NCBI GenBank assembly: GCA_015852425.1
Contig: JAAAIG010001036.1
Span: forward strand, 1-11,967
Source of the DNA: Gryganskiella cystojenkinii
Taxonomy: Eukaryota; Mortierellomycota; Mortierellomycetes; Mortierellales; Mortierellaceae
Reading direction: 5' to 3'
Length of the DNA stretch: 11,967 nucleotides
The position numbers and the translations under genes were made by a program. Positions 1 through 11,967 of the stretch are shown here, piece after piece. Each line of letters begins with the position of its first letter. Position 1 is the stretch's first letter. A model generated the notes under the pieces. The model had not been told where the DNA came from and searched no databases. It saw only the letters and a program-made list of their open reading frames with translations.

Positions 1-3000
1 TGTCCTCGAAGGGTCAGACTAATTTCACCAGTTACCGAATCCAAGAGAAGGACTGAGCAATATGTGCCATCTCTGCTGCCGCAGGCTATCTGCAGACCAT
101 CAGGTGAGTAGACGGCAGGTCCATTTGTAGTCATGGGCTCCTCGAAGGTCCACAGCTCTTTGCCTGATGTAACGTCCCACGTCTTGATGCCTTGGATAGT
201 CGTTAGGGCCAGCGTCTTCCCACAGGGCGAAAAAGTGATCCCGGGGCAATGGCCCTGAAGACCAGTCAAAACATGAAGGCACTCTGAGGTCTCGATGTCC
301 CATAATCGCACCGTCTCGTTCAGATACGACGACGCCAATAACGCGCCATCATTAGAACAGGCAATCGCACTCACTACCGCGTGATCCGGTTGTACCTCGA
401 AGCTATGCAAGCGCACTCCCGACTTGACCTCCCAAAGGTGAATGGCCCGATCAAGACTGCCTGTGATAACGCGCTGACCTGATGGCAAGAATATCAGCCC
501 CGCGAAGTATCTGGTGTGGCCTTCTAGGGCGTGGAGAAAATCCCCGGTTTTAAGATTCCATATTTTAGCGATCAAGGCCTCGTCAGCAATGTCAGCATCG
601 TCGGAACCTGACGCCAATAAGGAACCGTCCCGCGATATAGCAATGTGTGTCACGGGTCGATCGTGCCCTTGAATTATTGCTAGGATGGACCACGTTGAGG
701 CGTTGTACACGATAATCTTTCCATCCTCGGTGCCGGCCACGAACGCCTTCCCATCGAGCGTGTATGCAAACGTGTGGGACATCTTTTTTAGAGTTGGCCA
801 CTCTCCAAATCGAGATCCCTCCATCCGTGCACGACTGAGGTCAACTTGTCGAAACCAGACGCCCTCAAGATTGGTTTTCCTGAGGTCCGCTCCCTGCAAT
901 TGAGCCGAATCAAAGGCTCCAAAGCTCATATCGGCTCCTGGAACTTGAATACCTCGAAGATCATGATGAGTGAAATAAACCCCTGCCTTGACCAGGATCG
1001 TGATGGCATTCGCAGCGGCAGTACGCCATTTCTTGTCAGTTTTGGACGCTTCGATAAAGCCAAAAAGCTGATCCTTGAAAGGTGGCTCAGCCTGGACGCG
1101 CTCGACAAGGAACTGCATGACCGAGGGGTCCTTGATGAAATTGCGTCTTGCCAAAGGTGAGTCCATGCTCGGTCCAGTCATCGTTGTCGTGATGGCTGTT
1201 TCTGTTGCTTCGCCAAGATCCATCTCGAAGCTGTACGCCGAATCTGTGCTCTTCCGGCGCCGCGGCTGGTACATCCTGAACTCGACTGGTGCTTCCAATC
1301 TCAGTCCAGTTTGCTGTTGTGGCGCGTAGATGGCGCGACTGACTCCATACTCGAGAATCGATCGATGAATAAACCCAAACCGACTACCATTCCTGGTCAT
1401 TGGGATCGCCTTCCGTAGCAGTTGAGTCTCCTCGTCTCTGCGACCAAAGAATCGCTCCTTCCACGTGCCTGCATCTCGGTCTCTGTCGTAGTCGACTACG
1501 GGGTTCCCGCCTTGTTCGTTATAGATGACAACTGACAGGTCTTTCAGGAAACGGAGTCCTTGTTGGGTAAACCCATCTTCGGCGAGGCTCGCGAGGGCAT
1601 TTCTCTCTGCGTTGCTTAAGTCCTGAGAAGCACATCGCTCTTTGTTGCGCTCCAGCCACCGAGTTACTAATTCGTCGTACAGTGATACTCGCGTGATTTT
1701 GTTGGTAGTCAATTTCTGGTCCGGATCGGTAATAAGTGGGAGAACCTCGAGTGATAAAGACAACAGGAATGGATTCTTGACGAGATCCTGTAGACTTGGA
1801 ATCTGATCTAATACACTCTGGTAGTCCGATGCCACCCATAGTGGTCTCTTGATAGAGACATAACGGGCGATATAGTCCTTGATTTGGTCGCTTGAAAACG
1901 GAACTAGGACAGCTTGCTTGAATAGGTCGGGGTCCACTGGGCTTGCTCGACTCGGTTGGAAGAGGTCGAGGTAATCCTCGCCAAGGTGTTCGCTCCGACA
2001 GCTGACAATCATTTGCACACGCCATCCACCGTCCTTGTTGAACTCGTTGGACTCGTACAAATTCCGTGACTGTTGACACTCATCGTATCCGTCGCAGATG
2101 ATCACGAGCTCGCGGTCCTTCATTTCGCGGATCTGGGGCTCAGAGAAGTCGCAGATACGAAGATGCTTGGCTATCAAGTCCTTTTCTGGTCGATCAATAG
2201 CTGACAAACTGATCAATAGTGGGACCTTTGTCGTCTTTGGGCTGTCCATGTACGTTTTCCAAAGCTTGAGGTCGAGTTCCTGATTAAACGTCGTCTTTCC
2301 TGTGCCAGAACCACCGAGGAGCAAGAGCACCTTTTGATCGCTGCTCAGAAACTCGTCCACCATGGAGATGAGATCAAACGACTCGTCGTCGGAGGCGTGC
2401 AAATATTTCTTGGCCAATGGTGGGACATAGACGGTGCCGTCTCGTTCCTTGGTCCGCATCCTTGCCATGCGCTGCAGGACAGCCTCAACATCGGTCTTTC
2501 GTAGAAAACGATCGGAAGGAGAAAAGTCGTCGGGGAAGATACCAAGAGGAACGGTAGCCACGTCCAAAACTCGGGATAACTGTTTGGCTAGGGGTGCAAC
2601 AACTTTCTTGGCTCCAGGTCCTCTACGATTGATCAAACAAACAATCTCGTGAGTGCTTTATAGAAAACATTAATGGTCAAGTTTTTCTTGAAAACGACCT
2701 TGATGGGTCTACACTTACCCCCATTCGTGGGCTCTTCGGCGACTGTTTAATGCCAGCTCAGGATGACCCAAATCCGCGATCAAGTTGGCGTGATCAAGAT
2801 AAGCTGCTGCGATCCCTTCTCTCAAGGCCTTGTTGCCATCCTCGATGTTTTGGTCGGTGGAACTGGGTCTCTTGACGGTATTCTTCATATGGATAAGTAA
2901 CGTGTCGACATGACTGCAGAGGACTAGTTTGATGGCGGTATCGTTGGTGTCCTGCTCTCGAACATCGTCCAGAAGGGTTTGAACAAGCTTGAGAGACTGG

Positions 3001-3038
3001 ACAGGGGTGAGCGTGTTTTTTGAATGGAGGTCAAACAT
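1..3038 (-). CDS. NACHT / pentapeptide / WD40 STAND protein (NLR-like), 3' end outside window
   Basis: Two exons, 3038-2719 and 2622-1, are joined by a 96-bp intron; the reading frame is open to the window edge (about 980 residues visible). Residues 1-107 are helical, ending in a TPR-like hairpin (AxxxAYLDHANL...ALNSRRRAHEWG). A NACHT NTPase follows: Walker A GGSGTGKTTF near residue 209 and Walker B LVIICDGYDE near 277-286. Residues about 661-700 hold a short pentapeptide stretch (GADLRKTNLEG), and from about 714 there are six WD40-like blades with KIWNLKTG, HLWEVKSG, RLWDIETS and KTWDVTSG ends; the last line breaks off at the start of another repeat. Members of this class are intracellular signalling ATPases: WD40 repeats sense a ligand or non-self protein and NACHT drives oligomerisation. 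In fungi they act in heterokaryon incompatibility or immunity-like cell death, but the ligand and output of this one cannot be read from sequence. The start is fixed by an in-frame stop just upstream (3044-3042). The wording matches Mortierella NACHT families, from memory. No frame breaks are seen. Confidence 0.9.
2623..2718 (-). other. Intron 1 of the NACHT-WD40 gene
   Basis: The 5' splice site reads GTAAGT and the 3' site CGTAG. Removing 96 bp joins TGG GG to A GGA CCT (phase 2) and links the TPR-like N-terminus to the NACHT-leading region without a stop. The unspliced frame ends at once in TAA. Confidence 0.85.
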
Positions 3039-3850
3039 TCCTCATGTGTGATCGTCAAAGTAGTCGTTCAGGCGATCAAAAAAGGAGCGAGTGGGATTGG
3101 TACAAGTTACTGTGGTCTTGACAGGTTTGTTAATTGAGAGAATGATTCGAGTGATGAAGAATGATGATGGGTAGATGATGAGCAGAAAAGGGAGATGCAG
3201 AAAACAGAGGCGCCGCAGTCGAAGGCTGAGTGTGGCAAAGTCCGAAAGAGAGGAAAGAGCGTCAATTACGAATCAATGCTACTCTCTCTCCTCAGGAAGA
3301 GTTGTTGTGAGTGGGGGCGTGATGAGAGCGAATAGCACAGGGTAGCCACTAAAGAGACGTGACATTGTGATGGATCAGAGTGCGAAGAAAAGAATGGAAT
3401 TGTCCCTCTGTGGAAAGCCGATTGAGTGAAGGCCGCAAAGAGCATCGAGTCAATTTATCCCTTCCTCCGTTTTTGGCTGTCAAAACAGCCGAATTTTTTT
3501 TGAAACCTGCGTTTTTGCCCAAGATTATTAAATTTTGATCCCAGTCTGAATCGTATTTCTATTACTGTAACTCCATTCGCTCATCCATCTCGTCAGTGCC
3601 TGAGGAAGGACCGGCAGAGGGCGGAAGTTGGTTACCTTGGACAGGATCACACTCTGCTGCGACTGCGGCAGTGTTGTTAACGACGCAAAAAAGTAAAGGT
3701 GATGGTGTGAGAACAGTCTCCAGGGCATGTGTATCTTCATATCTGCATCCTTCTATTGCACCAAGGGCGAAAAACAAAGACTACATACCGAAGGAGTACT
3801 GTCGCTCCTGGACTAGAGGATGAACGTCCTGGCAGTTTCTAGTCTTTGGA

Positions 3851-3872
3851 GGATTTCAACTGGATTTCAACT
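3851..3872. repeat. Tandem duplication of an 11-bp unit
   Basis: The unit GGATTTCAACT occurs twice in direct succession without mismatch. It lies in non-coding sequence and has no evident function. Confidence 0.6.
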
Positions 3873-4133
3873 GCACGAATATCGAGTTGTGAATTTCTAA
3901 GGGCAAAACGAAAATTGATGCAAGACTCGATTTTCTTTGAGGATCGATATTTTGCTCTGTTAGCTGTTTTTGTTCATGAACCATACCGAGTGCCAGACAG
4001 CTGATGCTGTGTCTTTTTATCCAAATTTAGTATGGTGGCAACTCGCCACTGTGTTCGAAGTCATTGGCTGTGCAAAATCTTGGACCGGCTTTTTTTTGGC
4101 CTCCTCATTGCCAATGAAGACAGAAAATGTAAG

Positions 4134-4156
4134 CACCCGAGGGAGACAACAGCGAC
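4134..4156 (+). repeat. Left copy of a long-range direct repeat flanking the FEN-Fanzor gene
   Basis: The 19-bp core CGAGGGAGACAACAGCGAC (4138-4156) recurs exactly at 11632-11650, in the same orientation. With one mismatch the match extends to 23 bp (CAC[C/T] before the core). A 19-bp exact repeat is very unlikely by chance in 12 kb. The two copies lie outside the giant nuclease gene on either side, so they may be element-end sequences or a dispersed genomic repeat. Confidence 0.7.
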
Positions 4157-4187
4157 CACGCAAACTAACATTAGAGACTGCTGTTGA

Positions 4188-4230
4188 ACGACTTGTCTGT
4201 TCCATCAAAACGCATGGCACCAAAAGTCGT
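4188..4230. repeat. 7-bp inverted repeat in the 3' flank
   Basis: ACGACTT (4188-4194) and AAGTCGT (4224-4230) are exact inverted copies with a 29-base spacer. The stem is short and could arise by chance; it is listed because it lies between the direct repeat and the end of the nuclease gene, where a guide RNA would be expected. Confidence 0.3.
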
Positions 4231-4398
4231 CAATGATTTACAGTCTACATGTCTGGATAGGGTAGCAAGTCCCAAACCAGCAAAATTTCCTAGCAATTTT
4301 TCTTTATTGACAAAAATACGTTGCCAACAGCTTCCCTGTTACCTTTCATGCATAGTTCGAGACCATGCGAGCAGAACATATTGACGTCGGTCGACTTA

Positions 4399-4435
4399 TC
4401 CGTCTCAGTGCAGAAGATTAATCTGATGAGACGGA
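4399..4435. repeat. 9-bp inverted repeat (hairpin) downstream of the FEN-Fanzor gene
   Basis: TCCGTCTCA (4399-4407) and TGAGACGGA (4427-4435) are perfect inverted copies with a 19-base spacer that itself contains the palindrome AGATTAATCT (4415-4424). It starts about 125 bp past the stop codon in the direction of transcription. In TnpB and Fanzor loci the guide RNA is usually encoded at or just past the 3' end of the nuclease gene, so this is a candidate structured part of such an RNA. That role is inference only. Confidence 0.45.
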
Positions 4436-4560: not shown

Positions 4561-7500
4561 TCAAGTGGAGGTGGAGGGGGCGGATTTGGGGGTCCAATCT
4601 AGTGGTCCTGCTCGCTTTTGACGGTGGATCCAGAACCATCCGAGGTTAGCCATGTTGTGTGCTCCAGCATGGTCACGGTCTATTGGCACCCGGCATGAAG
4701 GACAGACAAACGTTCTTCCCTTCCACTGAACCAGCCTATTCTCGATCTCTTTGGAAACACAAACAGGGCACATTCGGGACGTCCTGAATTCGTTTACCAC
4801 CACGACAGTGTGACCCATTGCAACGGCCTATTTTTGGCGAAGAATAGGGGGAAAAAAAGTAGCAAGTCAGCAAAACTGAAATATACATTCAAAAGCGCAT
4901 ATAAAGTAGCTGCTATTACCTTCATGGCAAATGTCTTTTGGATTGACTCATGAGGAGAAGACTGGCCCTTCCTGGTGCGGAATTTGCCTCCTCCATAGAC
5001 AAAAAGTGCAGGAAGCATGTAGTGGTTGATGACTGACGATAGAGCCCTGTCTTTTTCGGATTTCAAGGCCTTCTTGTGTTCCCATTGCAGCTTCTTGAGT
5101 TTTTTGGAACCGTAAAATGCTCGGAGAATCGGCAACAGGTGCATATGTTGCCTCACCATATCAAACATTTCATCCTCAGATTGAAATTTGGTGGACAATA
5201 ACCTGGACGTGATCTCCTTGATGCAAGGCATCTCCACCCATGTTTTCGCTTCGTGTCTACCTCCTGAACCGAACAAGTGACGCTGCCAATGGAAATCTGG
5301 TTGAACCCATAAACTGTACGTGGCATCTCCTTTGGGAAGGAGTGGGCGATACTGCTCCAAGACCTCCTTCTCTTGTCGATATCTGTAGGATGGCCGCAAG
5401 AGAGCCCCCCTTCTCATCGACATATTCCAGACAGACATCTTGGCCACGTCGTCCTCTGTCATACCACCGCTGGAGGTGGCTGCGGGATATGCTGCTTTGC
5501 ACACATTTTCGCGAACAAGTAAGGGAAGTCGGATGTTGGACGTGGGCGTAAGCGAGGACGAGTCGCGGGATTGGTCGTGTAGAACTGATGCGGCGCCCGG
5601 GTCCATATCAAACAGACAAAATGCTGCGCTGACTTTCTCTCCAGGGTCAATGCCACCGATACGGTTGTGAAATTGAGTGACTGCATGTGCGCTGAGACTT
5701 TTGAGCTGCGGCAATTTGAGGGTTCGACGGAATGGATGTCGACTATCATAGACAATGAACTGAATCTCCAGTCCGTTGAAGATCACAAAGTTGTTCAGGA
5801 TATAACGGGTGAATCGATTCATGTTTGGGCGAAAGCGAGGTTTGGATAGAGTTAGGGGCCGACAGTCCTTGAGAGCAGATTTCAGTTCCTGATTATACGC
5901 TTTTTTTTTCGTCAAGGAATCTTTTGAGTGCTTTGCGACCTCTCGTATTGTTTTGAAATTCTTGGAAAGTGCATGTCCTCTTCCCGTAGTTGGTCTGCCT
6001 GAGCTTTGTGCCCCAGTTGATCTGTGAGTGGCTTTGGTGATAGTCGGTGCGTGAGCGTTTTTCGAACCGTTCAGTACCAGGGAACTTTTGGTACTTGGCG
6101 ATGAGCTTCCTGTCCCCATAGAAAAAAGAATGCAGGATCGAGCCAGGATTGTTCACTATCTCTGCAGTTGCGCTGCGCTTGTCCATGTATTTCCTGACCG
6201 AGAACTCAACCCCTTCGGTATATGTTTTTTTGTCATTTCCCCAGAGAACCTCCACCAGTGCTCTCTCCTCAAGTCGGACGAATGATTCCTTGAACCCAGT
6301 GGTCGGGAAGAAAGCGGGCCGGTGTTGCTGAGGGATCTGTTGGTAAAAGAACCATAGCTTCTGGATGTAGTCCAAAGGAAACTTTTCCTTTTTTAGCTTT
6401 TCCAATTCCGGATTATCGGCGTCTCCGCTGTCCTCCTCTTCCTCCTCGTCATCGTCATCCTCTTCCTCTTCTTCCTCTTCCTCTTCCTCTTCCTCGTCAT
6501 CTTCTTCCTCTTCATCCACTTCATCCTCTTTGTCTTGGTTTTTGACGGCGCCATCGGCTCCGTCCTTCTTGTCCTTGATCTCAAAAGGGTCGTCCAATTG
6601 CAGGTGCTTTAGACCCAACTTCTTGATCTAGTTTTACCAACAAAAAATGCAATTAGAAACAGATATTCTATAATCACTGCATGCATGGATATTGTAGTGT
6701 GACATTTCGTACCTTATCTATCAGAGTTGTTACCAGCTTCTTGAAATGGGTGGCAATGGTCACCCATGTGGTTTGTGCGAGATCCTGAAGTGCTTGAGAG
6801 ACAGGGAGGTCATGAGGATTGAGGAGAGGGAGGCGGTGTCCGTGCGAGTCATCAAACTGTGCGTAGATGATGTGTGCCAAGTCGTGCACCACCGCGTTCT
6901 TTGCATTTTCGCCAAACGTCTGCCTGTCGGTCAGAGCGTAGTTGTAGAGCTTTTTAATCAGCTCAAATCCGTGCTTCTTGACGAGCAGAGTCCTCAAGAA
7001 CACCAAACCAGAATGGACCTGCACGTTGGGATCGCTGTTGAAATTTGGGTTGAGAGTCCATTCGTGGACTTGACAAGAGGTGAAGCAATACATCCGAAGA
7101 GCAAGGAATACACGAGTCCGAGCCCCGTTGAGCATGGTGCAGGTGTGCTCCATACGTTCGACGATGAGACGGACGTCAGTTTTGGTAAAGGATAGGTCTG
7201 TCCGTGGAAGTAAACCTCGTGACAGACAAGCCTGAATAGATCCTGCGGTCTGAGTGTCAACAGCAAAGGTCCGCTGACAGTATCGCTTGATGTCATAGAT
7301 CTTTGTTCGATCCCTTGTCTGAGCGTTGGCATCCTTGATAGGTCGTGCAGAGATACCCGATTCCCTTTTCTTTTTCTCTTCCTTTTGCTTCTTCTTGGAT
7401 GGTTTGCGCTGATCCTGGTTTGGGGCAGATGATTGTTGCGCGGTCTTGTCATCCTCGCTAGGAACCGGCAGGGGGGGAATAGCCAGAACACAATCGTCCG

Positions 7501-10500
7501 CAGAGATCTTTTTGTTTGAGGATGGCTGCACTTTATGCATGGCGTAACGAATGGAATCGACCGGGGACATATACCTATAAGTTGTTTTTTTTCAGGAAAA
7601 AAATGGGGGCATGCACACACATGGTCAATATAGTTGTTCATGATAAAAAATGAAACATATTATAATAAAAATAAAGATAAAAATAAAAAAAACGTTCTTA
7701 CTTGGAGTTTTCCCATTGTTTCCGTCTATTATGCTTGTTGCGCCGTTTGAACTCGCGCTTTTGTTTGCTGCGTCTTAATCCATAGCGCTGGTATCGTCTA
7801 GTGGCCTCTGAAATTGCTGGAAGGGCCTGACGAAGAGGGAAATCTGGAAGAGGCAGGTCGGGATAATAAATGAATTTGTTTTTATCGAGTACAGCCTCCA
7901 TCTGAGCTATGCAACGCCGCCAGTAGTTGTACTTGTTGTTGCAGACATGCCATTCTTCCGCCACGAGCATATGACCGTCATGACGGTACTGTCGAACGAT
8001 TTGATACATGTTTTCTTTTTCCTTTTTTAGTTGAGCAAGGTCAGTCCTTGACTCGTAGGGGTTCCCATTGGCGTCCGTGGCGGGTTGTTGTAGTGGTCCT
8101 TTGTCCTGTTTTGAGGTTTCTAGCTGCTGCTGCTGCGCGCTGCCTTGGACAGAACTAGAACTGCTTGGGACTTTTTCGGCCGCAGCCTTGGCAGTTGTTG
8201 TAGTTCTTGCCTGTGTTTTCGGGGCCTGAGTCTGTTCAGAACCTGTAATGATGACGGCAGTTTGAGAAGAGTTGTTGTCCTGCTGCAAAAGCATCCTAAG
8301 CTTAACCTGGAATGGCAAACACACTGCAGATTCTGTCCGATGTGCTGGGAATGGGCCATTGGTCGGATCGGGATAAGGCAGTTTGTTGCTCAATTCTTGG
8401 ATCCGATCCTCAATCTGAGACTGGCTAATAAGAAGAGAAATGACCTCGCTTTGACGAAGTTCCCATAGCTCCCGAACAAGAAGATCCGGTCTGTGGTAAA
8501 GCTCATTCAGGCGTCGTCTGTTCTTCTTGTCGATTTGATGTAGACTATCGAGACTTGTTTCGGATTTGTAGGGATTGTCCTGAGGGGTCCGTGTATCTGC
8601 AGTTGGCGGGAGCGCTGGTGACGGCGGCAGGTCGACAGCAGGTGAAGGAGCGTTCTTGTCATTGGTTCCCTGTTCTTGGTCGGTGAGGTTTAGTTCAAAC
8701 TCTCGTAAATTTGTTGACAGTCGACTGCGGAGGATGGCGATGGTGAGTCCGCCATGGTCCTGTTCAATCTTTCGCCGGAGTTGCTTAAGGACATGGTTGT
8801 CTTGTTGAGCCCGACGTTGGAAAGACAAGTGTAGGGAACCCTCCAAGTACTCCTTGTTGCACTGGAGTTCATGAGAGATAAAGTCGAGCTTGTCCTGCTG
8901 TGTTGGTTCTTGCCTATCCAAGGCGGCGCTTGAGAGGTCAAATGTGATCACGGTACTGAGACTGGTACTGGGGACAGAGCTGAGGGTGTCTGTGATTATA
9001 GGAAGCATATGAGGGTCGCGGGGTTTTTGGCAGAAAGAGGGGAAAGTCCAGCGCTCAGAAGGGTAAGGAACAGCATACGGCGGAAAGTCGGCCGATATCT
9101 TTGCGTCCAGGACCTCTAATCGATCCTGTGCCTTCCACACTGCTTGGGCCCGAGAGTCCTTCCTTTGCTTCTTTGTGATTTTATACGCCCCATCATAAAG
9201 ACCACGGAGCCTGCCCTCCATGCGGGAATACGCGAGACGAAGTAATGAAATGTTGCTCCATGCACTGACTGGACGCGCTGTGAATCCGACAGGGCCACGA
9301 CCGGTTTCATCCGAAGGTATTTGCGTAGTCTTGTGGTGGGAGGGATAATGGCCAGAACTGTCGGAAGAATCATCATCGGATTCATCTGAAGAATCGGGAA
9401 CTGCAAACTGAGAGGAGTCCTGTCCAGTCGTGTTGGCCAGATGAGACCTGTTCTGTTGTCTAAAGAGGCGGTTCAGCATGACTTTGATACGTTCGTGGGC
9501 TCTTGGTGATTCTGGAGGGTCCTCGTCCTCCGTTTCACTGAGGCGAATGAAAATAGAGATGGCATGATCAAAGTCTTCGGATCGAGGTACATGCATCTTG
9601 ACGTTGTCTGCTTGTTGGTCTGCACGCTTAGCATTCCTGTTTTTTTCCCACCCTTCGATAATAGGACGGATCGTGCTGACATACTTCTTGACAAGAAGGG
9701 ACATTGCGTCGGCTTGATTTTCTACGAGGGATTGCATGTCGACATTGTGTCTCAAGGTGTATAAGTGAGTAGAATGGACAAGTCCAACGTTCGACCTGCC
9801 GCCTTGACTGGGGCCATGGCTTGGGTTTAGTGGCACCCAACTATTGGGAATATCGGACCTCTTGCGAGGAAGAAGGCCTTGGGTGACAAACATAGACTGA
9901 TCTGGCCATGGGAAATCATGTAATCCTTGGACAAATTTGAAGTTTCGTTGCAGACCATAATCGGTGCCTCCTCTAACGTAGTCGTTATTTGTGAACATTG
10001 AAGCCCACATCAATTGACTCGCAGTCTTGAGTTCGGCCTTCTTCAAGACGTCGTCCTTGAAAATCGTCTTCAGGACTCCACCCTTCATCGGCATCGTGAC
10101 GGACTGGACATCCTCGTAGACCAAAAAGTCGCTGTCCGTGGCAACAATGCGAAGATTGGCGCGGTCATCCACTGGTGCATCTCGATATCGTTGGGCGATG
10201 CAGGTGTCGGCTTGAAACTCACAAAGGCAGACTTTCCATCCCAGGTGCTTAAGCAGATATGTGACCTCGTATCTCAGGATTTCTCGAGGGAATCGGTAAG
10301 CGTTTTTACATCTGCGGATGAATTCCTTGATAGATCGAGGCCCCAACCGAGAGAGTTTTTCCAACGCAGCCAACTCCTTTAGCGGTTCCTTGCAGCGCTC
10401 AACATGTTGGGAATGTTTCTGCTTAGAATATTTGCCGTCGATGTGTATGATGCTGTTCATCTTGCTCAGTTTCCGCTCCTCTGATAGACGATGATCCAAC

Positions 10501-11082
10501 ATGCGTGCCATTGGCTCGTAAATCTATTCATGAAAAGGGTTGGATAGTCGTCAGTAGCCTGCACGGTGATGATGACAATGACAGTTTATTCTCGAACTCC
10601 GATTCGTCTTACGTTTTCATCCCTAGACGACGTCAGATTCAACTCTGCATCCTTGATATTGATCTCGGAGGGATGCTCTTCCTTGATGTAAGCATTGAGT
10701 GCGGCGAGGAAATCATGCTGTTGACTAACTGCGGCTGCGTCATCGTCCATGGAGTCATCGCTATCGGAGCTGTCTCCCATGCCGTCGCCTCCTCCAAGAG
10801 TGGCTTCTTGCATGACGACGTCCTGATCTCTGTTGATATCTCGACTTGTACGCGAAGTGACACTCTCGTTGGAATCATCCTTGGTAGGGGACAGTGCGGT
10901 GTGTGCAGCCGAGTGCTTTTCGGCCGACTTTGACTCGTGTAAAACGACATCAAACCCAGGGCGTTGATGACTCTAAAGTCCATGGATAGCAGGTCATAGT
11001 GAACCATCAACTTTCCATCCTGCAGGTTCTCAAGGTGCGATAGGGCTGTTTTAGCCACTTTGGCCAGGTTTAAAACACCCAT
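4561..11082 (-). CDS. Giant FEN1/XPG-like nuclease fused to a Fanzor (TnpB-like) RuvC nuclease
   Basis: Coding exons are 11082-10613, 10523-7702, 7574-6713, 6627-4920 and 4827-4561, about 2042 residues once two single-base frame breaks (10955-10957 and 5901-5909) are allowed for. Residues 1-350 match the flap-nuclease family: an MGVLNLAK start like FEN1, D30, IDGK at D186, a QAD motif at 261-263, TDSD at 287-289 and NDY at D338. An acidic serine-rich insert (about 44-157) splits the domain. Residues 350-1160 are mostly disordered or coiled-coil, with diverged repeats and a KKKQKEEKKK tract near 1157 that could be a nuclear signal. An acidic run spans 1419-1455. The C-terminus is TnpB/Fanzor-like: GIDPG (D1712), YGGGKF (1929-1934), NEFRTS (E1967), CPVC...CPSC (1974-1999) and RDHAGAHN (D2006). 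The start is supported because family members begin Met-Gly. Expected role is DNA cleavage, perhaps RNA-guided and linked to a mobile element; the guide RNA is not identified. Known Fanzors are far shorter and I recall none fused to a FEN domain. The copy may be a pseudogene if the frame breaks are real. Confidence 0.82.
4828..4919 (-). other. Intron 4 of the FEN-Fanzor gene
   Basis: The donor is AAG|GTAATA, a branch-like GCTGAC lies inside, and the acceptor is AATAG|GCC. Removing 92 bp joins ...TFAMK to AVAMGHTVVVVNEF in phase 0, which joins the two halves of the RuvC domain and is strong support that both belong to one protein. Confidence 0.88.
6628..6712 (-). other. Intron 3 of the FEN-Fanzor gene
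   Basis: The donor is AAG|GTACGA, a CTAAT branch-like site is present, and the acceptor is ACTAG|ATC. Removing 85 bp joins TTLIDK to IKKLGLKHLQLDD in phase 0. Confidence 0.85.
7575..7701 (-). other. Intron 2 of the FEN-Fanzor gene
   Basis: The donor is CCAA|GTAAGA and the acceptor TTATAG|GTAT. The 127-bp intron is very AT-rich, with A/T runs around 7640-7690. Splicing is phase 2 and joins ENS to KYMSPVDS; without it the exon 2 frame stops right after the junction. Confidence 0.83.
10524..10612 (-). other. Intron 1 of the FEN-Fanzor gene coding region
   Basis: The donor is AAC|GTAAGA, a strong TACTGAC branch-like site lies inside, and the acceptor is GAATAG|ATT. Removing 89 bp joins SSRDEN to IYEPMARMLDHR in phase 0 and connects the two parts of the FEN-like N region (D30 and the IDGK motif). 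Confidence 0.85.
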
Positions 11083-11169: not shown

Positions 11170-11967
11170 CAAGACCGACTGTTGTTGATTAAAGGATGTG
11201 CGGAAGAAAAGTGAGTTCGTAAAGCAGCTATTTTCTTAGGTCTTTGAAAAATTTGGACCAAAAGCAAGGGAAATCAGCACTGAGGACGTGTCGGTGACTT
11301 GACGAGGTAGAAATTCGCGGGATAGGACGGCAGCTAGAGAAAGGAGATGTATATTCGAGATTCGAGAAATGGTACGTACACCGTAATGTGAAAGAAGCTT
11401 GTCAGTATAAGGAGAGAGAGATGATATCCAAATATGAGAATGTTACCAAAATATACCTTGTGAAAAAAAATATATACGTTCTCTTATTTCTGCCGATGAA
11501 ACAGGTAGTCAAGAAGTAATGGCTGAGAACTGCGCTCTAACGACACGAGGTGTCAGCCAGTGAGGACTTGGATGTTGTGAACGGAAAGGTTAAGGGGAAA
11601 TAAGGCGAGTGAAAATCTTGGGTTAAACACTCGAGGGAGACAACAGCGACGAGTACAACCAAGGTGAAGGACGGCAGATAGAACAAGAGGACAAGAAAAT
11701 AAGAGAATAAGATAGCGAGAGCAAGAGAACACACAAGTTCATTGTGGTGATTCTCTCTGCTCTTTGTCGCGTCTAAAATTTTCTTTGTCTATCTGGTGGT
11801 GTGATATGACACGAGTCTTGTTGATCCTGCCTTCGGACCTTTACCACAAAACAATCACCGGGCACATCAAGGCGCGAAGAAAGCTTCTGATGTCCTTTTT
11901 TCAATTTGGGCTTACACAAAAGACAGCGGGGGGCTGGCTGCTCACTGATGCCAAGCCTTTTTCGACC
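11170..11967. other. Upstream region of the FEN-Fanzor gene; no gene seen
   Basis: About 800 bp are rich in purines on the plus strand, thus pyrimidine-rich in the sense of the minus-strand gene, as is common for fungal promoters. A TATATA stretch next to a run of A sits at about 11463-11476 and could serve as a TATA element, but its distance from the start codon (about 390 bp, including the UTR intron) leaves this open. No open frame of family character is present on either strand. The right copy of the direct repeat lies inside this stretch. Confidence 0.45.
11628..11650 (+). repeat. Right copy of the long-range direct repeat
   Basis: This repeats the 4134-4156 sequence in the same orientation with one mismatch over 23 bp (19 bp exact in the core). 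Together the copies enclose about 7.5 kb containing the whole FEN-Fanzor gene, its UTR intron and its 3' flank. No clear inverted termini or short target duplication were found next to either copy. Confidence 0.7.

Follow-up and report, generated by a model that had tools for sequence, protein, structure and literature searches.

Can a single eukaryotic gene encode both a flap nuclease of the FEN1/XPG type and a nuclease of the Fanzor type, a relative of the RNA-guided nucleases of CRISPR? The question is raised by a contig of the soil fungus Gryganskiella cystojenkinii, analyzed here in its entirety (contig C37, 11,967 bases, hereafter the window; the genome comprises 35 Mb in 1050 contigs). 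Below, C-numbers denote contigs of this genome and P-numbers public proteins. A first-pass annotation of the window had proposed such a fusion, and the proposal is borne out by an intact second gene of the same genome (C2), by 34 of 51 public proteins, by Pfam models and by predicted folds. We are therefore highly confident that Mortierellaceae possess a multigene family in which a FEN/EXO1-type 5′ nuclease domain of ~300 residues is placed ahead of a whole Fanzor1-like protein. The basis for this conclusion is computed: both folds occur in one predicted polypeptide, the architecture recurs, catalytic residues are conserved and the two halves branch in largely the same way.

Recurrence of the two-part architecture

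A search with a composite query, joining the FEN part of C335 to the Fanzor part of C201, retrieved 50 proteins. Judging by their names, all come from genera of Mortierellaceae. Proteins having both FEN and RuvC parts were found in nine genera (again by names), which supplies the recurrence in several species that had been named beforehand as a supporting outcome. According to profiles built from these same proteins, both parts are present in the 34 public proteins mentioned above, RuvC alone in 16 and FEN alone in one. Predicted folds place an EXO1/FEN1-like structure and one resembling a solved Fanzor within a single polypeptide. In the case of P0024, both curated Pfam cut-offs are exceeded (XPG_I, 28.1 bits; TNB, 52 bits), and of 43 members, 18 give an XPG_I match and 30 a TNB match at an E-value of 0.05 or better. 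The NCBIfam models fen_arch and guided_TnpB match P0007, P0024 and P0002, both under their cut-offs.

Within the G. cystojenkinii genome, TNB scored above the cut-off at 19 places. The order of parts was read at seven loci covered for more than 3 kb upstream of TNB: FEN is followed by RuvC in the window, C2, C560 and C405 (in C405, the first part of FEN only) but not in C434, C241 or C441, and C441 matched neither the FEN nor the RuvC profile. C335 and C204 have lone FEN parts close to contig ends. Nine of the 19 TNB places lie less than 2 kb from a contig end (C340, C748, C185, C164, C495, C972, C814, C259 and C533); in eight of these the sequence breaks off N-terminally of TNB, as if the assembly had failed in gene bodies that are nearly identical.

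Trees of the FEN and RuvC parts, computed for 25 proteins, recovered many groups in common. Their simplest reading is one old fusion, after which exchange of halves may have occurred. P0001 sits on a very long branch in both trees (6.26 and 6.69 changes per column).

Gene structure in the window and in an intact paralogue

The gene occupies the minus strand, as do all features of it given below, and runs from a Met at 11082 to a stop at 4561 across four GT..AG introns. Exon 1 (10613..11082), similar to exon 1 of C2, encodes the FEN N-region beginning with MGVLNLAK (11059-11082). Exon 2 (7702..10523) carries the FEN I-region (~9906-10514) and then a long linker or middle region, to which exon 3 (6713..7574) also belongs. 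An acidic run and the WED-like and RuvC-I regions, with GIDPG at 5640-5654, are found in exon 4 (4920..6627), and exon 5 (4561..4827) provides the alternative Glu (NEFRTS, 4777-4794), a C4 zinc ribbon and DRD (4663-4680). Introns 1 to 4 (10524..10612, 7575..7701, 6628..6712 and 4828..4919) measure 89, 127, 85 and 92 nucleotides (nt), compared with 97, 104, 102 and 75 nt in C2.

The C2 gene (L006:1264-7402), located on a separate contig of 134,440 bases, has five exons, is open throughout and encodes 1919 residues. All four introns are at identical positions and in identical phases in the two genes, which would not be expected by chance in so diverged a paralogue. In exon 2 identity is 40% over 832 aligned codons and synonymous divergence (dS) is saturated, indicating that the arrangement is old. 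A deposited model, P0001, is identical to the C2 protein over 1832 residues; it shares exons 1-4 and differs solely in the last exon, where the zinc end is lost. Comparison of the C-terminal ends of C2 and C340 gave ratios of nonsynonymous to synonymous divergence (dN/dS) of 0.18 and 0.06, showing purifying selection.

The four introns of the first-pass annotation agree with the paralogue in place and phase, but its statement that their removal joins all parts in frame does not hold. The spliced length of 6129 nt is divisible by three, and there are internal stops in all three frames. Relative to C2, a first break in exon 1 (10954..10975) leads from frame 0 to frame 2, the NALG frame (10954-10965) giving way to the GFDVVLHE frame (10934-10957). 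A second, at nine T (A9 in the gene) in exon 4 (5901..5909), leads from frame 2 back to frame 0. Frame 0 covers the start and the sequence past T9, and frame 2 what lies between, from the remainder of exon 1 into exon 4. In length the two shifts offset each other, and this is probably how the in-frame claim arose. The breaks may be sequencing errors or real decay, and the window copy itself may accordingly be mis-sequenced or broken; we left them unmended and used C2 in its place. Whether the window copy is a decaying pseudogene within an otherwise working family is, in our estimate, an even call. Besides its own two breaks, in-frame stops or mere fragments are seen in other copies of the genome; on the other hand, the rest of its exon sequence is open, its motifs and splice sites are intact, and one break sits in a homopolymer, a frequent site of sequencing errors.

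The N-terminal FEN/EXO1-like half

The acidic motifs reported to follow the MGVLNLAK start in FEN order could all be located. We take the Asp of VHYD in exon 1 to be the equivalent of FEN1 Asp34. IHIDGK (10431..10448) contains the Asp86 equivalent, CEFQADTCIA (10194..10223) has Gln at the Glu158 position and Asp at the Glu160 position, ATDSDFLVY (10116..10142) holds the equivalents of Asp179/Asp181, and FTNNDYV (9975..9995) that of Asp233. NDY does not vary over the 26 aligned rows and DSD hardly does, and the main clade retains D, D, EAD, DSD and NDY. The third motif, covered by 24 rows, reads EAD in 19, ETD in one and has Gln in four (three QAD, one QFD), namely the window and C2 (FQAD), P0020 (GQAD) and P0042 (GQFD). 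D80, D184, D186 and D235 never vary in the 14 near full-length proteins, and D37, E165 and D167 are almost always kept. The metal-binding acidic set is complete at the level of the family and incomplete in the window branch, where the Glu158 position is Gln in the window and C2 and the other positions are acidic. Judged from these residues, the family looks like a nuclease and the window branch may be altered.

Profile comparisons are consistent with this assignment. The N-terminal part of a family-protein profile matched RAD2, FEN1, XPG, EXO1 and GEN1; in the profile of the 14 near full-length proteins, XPG aligned from residue 1, and FEN pieces of the window, C2 and C335 matched this profile with a probability of 99.3%. 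The predicted fold is that of the catalytic domain of the FEN/XPG/EXO1 superfamily. The family thus resembles FEN1, EXO1, XPG (Rad2) and GEN1 in fold across the whole catalytic domain and in metal-binding acidic residues, but differs from them in being fused to a Fanzor, in having many related copies in one genome and, in the window branch, in carrying Gln in place of one carboxylate.

A second divergent FEN-Fanzor branch is represented by L067:2400-3736 (C335), L071 (C560), P0042 and P0020. Its motifs are IHYD, GQ[AF]D and LNDYD or QNDYD, and its Glu158 position, wherever readable (C335, P0020 and P0042), is Gln.

The C-terminal Fanzor-type half

The Pfam Cas12f1-like_TNB model matches window exon 5 (E 1.6e-12) and C2 (E 8.9e-11). 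The GIDPG, NEFRTS, CPVC/CPSC and DRDHAG motifs of the first-pass annotation are present in the window translation, in the order GIDPG, NEFRTSRMCPVC, CPSC, DRD and with 257 residues from D to TS. The Fanzor pattern given in the text of Bao and Jurka 2013 (PMC3627910), D-X(125-275)-[TS][TS]-XX-C4-X(5-50)-RD, is found with X = 257 in the window and X = 262 in C2. Our own version of it is complete in 19 of the 51 public proteins, the others ending early, missing a piece or deviating.

Yoon 2023 (PMC10711439) describes in its text a Fanzor fingerprint of DPG at RuvC-I plus an alternative Glu six residues before the zinc finger or first CxxC. Both the window (GIDPG, NEFRTSRMC) and C2 (GVDPG, NEYMTSKMC) carry it. 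In the main clade of 43, the alternative Glu is seen in 31 and a gap in 11; RuvC-I reads DLG in 32 and DPG in one, so that the DPG half of the fingerprint is largely missing there. The same text gives a TDG motif in the WED domain as a mark of Fanzor1. TDG is present in 35 of the 43 main-clade members and absent from the window branch (FNG in C2, FNGLEIQF in the window), which is why we term that branch Fanzor-type and not firmly Fanzor1. The WED/REC/RuvC/TNB fold of Fanzor1 was found. C-terminal halves matched the profile of the 14 near full-length proteins with a probability of 99.5%, and the C-terminal part of the family-protein profile that matched RAD2 and FEN1 gave weak matches to LaTranC and CasPhi.

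Relation to known systems

The described Fanzor1 proteins SpuFz1, GtFz1 and PpFz1 are without the ~300-residue N-terminal FEN/EXO1 domain of the present family. Supplements aside, a domain of this kind goes unmentioned in the texts of Saito 2023, Bao and Jurka 2013, the Cell 2024 structures paper and Yoon 2023; the word 'xpg' is absent from the text of Saito 2023, and 'flap' and 'fusion' from that of the Cell 2024 paper. TnpB of IS200/IS605 and IS607 is similar in that the guided_TnpB model matches the TNB end (P0007, E 5.3e-8, under the cut-off), but the present family is eukaryotic and spliced and has the alternative Glu and the FEN domain. The remark that no described family has both domains agrees with searches of article texts in the open-licence PubMed Central (PMC) literature, in which no description of a FEN/XPG and Fanzor/TnpB fusion or of a Mortierella Fanzor was found. 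In UniRef titles, individual members appear as 'XPG-I domain-containing' or 'Cas12f1-like TNB domain-containing'. As far as we have seen, then, the parts are already in databases and the combination is unremarked; a large, apparently unnamed protein family is added across one fungal family.

Evidence weighing against the fusion family

Several observations count against the interpretation given above. The family is known here from genome sequence and predicted proteins. The Pfam XPG models had no match on the scanned window and C2 pieces, so the FEN call was at first unsupported and support came through relatives. When the window branch was used by itself, a FEN structure in PDB was reached at E 0.13, with a CHAT protein ranking above it (0.1), and the Gln at the Glu158 position in the window and C2 means that the FEN half may be weak or dead there. 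Of the 16 public proteins with RuvC and no detected FEN, six are labelled partial and ten are not; in the genome, RuvC occurs at C434 and C241, where the 3.4 and ~5 kb upstream, respectively, gave no FEN match. The trees conflict, with support, on P0014, which groups with P0002, P0035 and P0006, P0023, P0045 in the FEN tree (96/96) and with P0017 and P0018 in the RuvC tree (97/97), implying some exchange of halves or tree error. The selection test spans the C-terminal end alone, and no guide RNA was seen in Rfam and covariation tests of the repeat downstream of the gene.

Possible function and alternative roles

FEN/EXO1 enzymes cleave 5′ flaps and carry out 5′-end resection. Fanzors are described in the text of PMC10432273 as RNA-guided DNA cutters, and from the activities of the two families we infer a joint cut-and-process role. 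With an RNA produced from the element or its vicinity as guide, the Fanzor half would cut a matching target; the FEN/EXO1-like half would work in cis on the 5′ ends or flaps that the break sets free; and repair would be steered to homologous copying of the element-bearing strand, resulting in homing or retention of the element. A guided cut coupled to end processing in cis that favors homologous repair would be the simplest joint use of the two halves, and we put it forward as somewhat short of probable. We are a little more doubtful of its full form, a natural single-polypeptide cut-and-process machine in which the fused EXO1/FEN resects the 5′ ends made by the Fanzor and the element spreads or survives by homology-directed copying with no transposase. 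If true, an RNA-guided nuclease would, to our knowledge for the first time, be seen to carry an end-resection nuclease of its own. The family would also give engineered Cas-exonuclease fusions, which have been made for altering repair, a counterpart in nature. A cutter fused to a flap- or end-processing nuclease makes it directly testable why mobile elements keep TnpB/Fanzor nucleases and how the breaks become element copies.

Alternatively, the FEN half could have a structural or DNA-binding role, holding on to flaps or branched DNA that it no longer cuts, at least in the window/C2 branch. The Gln at the Glu158 position (window, P0001 for C2, P0020 and P0042) and the very long branch of P0001 suggest this, but the remaining carboxylates are retained in that branch, and EAD in 19 of 24 rows and the four Asp invariant in 14 proteins count against it. 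On balance we regard a non-cutting FEN half as unlikely.

Still less likely, in our view, is that the FEN half serves transposition itself, trimming excised or joined ends, and not repair after the cut. The setting of the gene bears on this. Two parts of one dispersed repeat flank it on the minus strand: part A (11624..11702) in the 5′ flank ends in a 27-nt core (11624-11650), and part B (3485..4158) in the 3′ flank starts with this core (4130-4156). At each of the three places examined, C111, C689 and C629, the two parts are contiguous, and the match of each flank stops at or a few bases from the edges of the core. These sequences suggest either that the gene unit was inserted into the repeat or that the gene-less copies are deletions between direct repeats; either would suggest a mobile past. 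Gene-less 'ghost' elements are reported for SpuFz1 in the text of PMC10432273, and that of PMC3627910 has Fanzor1 genes carried by many transposon types. Against a role in transposition, the Pfam scan of nine reading frames from the window and C2 showed no domain of a transposase, inverted repeats are short and imperfect, and the gene-less state was read at three of the other places of the repeat.

That two adjacent genes or an assembly join were read as one, as the two frame breaks, the 12-kb contig and the relatives having RuvC alone might suggest, is very improbable, since order, introns and open frame are repeated on the independent 134-kb contig, both parts occur in nine genera and the trees are largely congruent.

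Repeats downstream of the gene and neighboring genes

The B-part repeat aligns between the window and C2 and is dispersed, with 44 matches listed in the genome (window included). The window repeat shares 70-81% identity with other copies; as coding dS is saturated, the association of repeat and Fanzor may be independent and non-random. Part of the repeat lies in sense downstream of the C2 gene (L006:7597-8206), and a 57-nt repeat end does so downstream of the C2-type Fanzor copy in C646 (L019:1253-1307). The C340 and C989 copies had no match to it within ~1.5 kb downstream. As a candidate guide-RNA scaffold the conserved downstream repeat was rejected: it matched no Rfam family at the gathering score, covariation gave no support (term +3.37, six sequences), and the C340 and C989 copies were without it over the stretch given above. 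Near the repeat end there is a hairpin, GGCTGTTTTGACAGCC (window 3451-3495, minus strand), with a sub-threshold Histone3 match (E 0.5); it is absent from C2.

Another dispersed repeat, ~240 nt long and sharply bounded (window 4166-4407), recurs at eleven other genomic places and is unmatched in the 3′ flank of C2. At the far end of the window, a gene cut by the contig start (3-2657, minus strand) encodes NACHT (E 1.4e-8) and WD40 repeats (many models), with a reading frame upstream of it (2715-3041, minus strand). Judging by its domains, the NACHT/WD40 gene is an ordinary fungal STAND-type gene.
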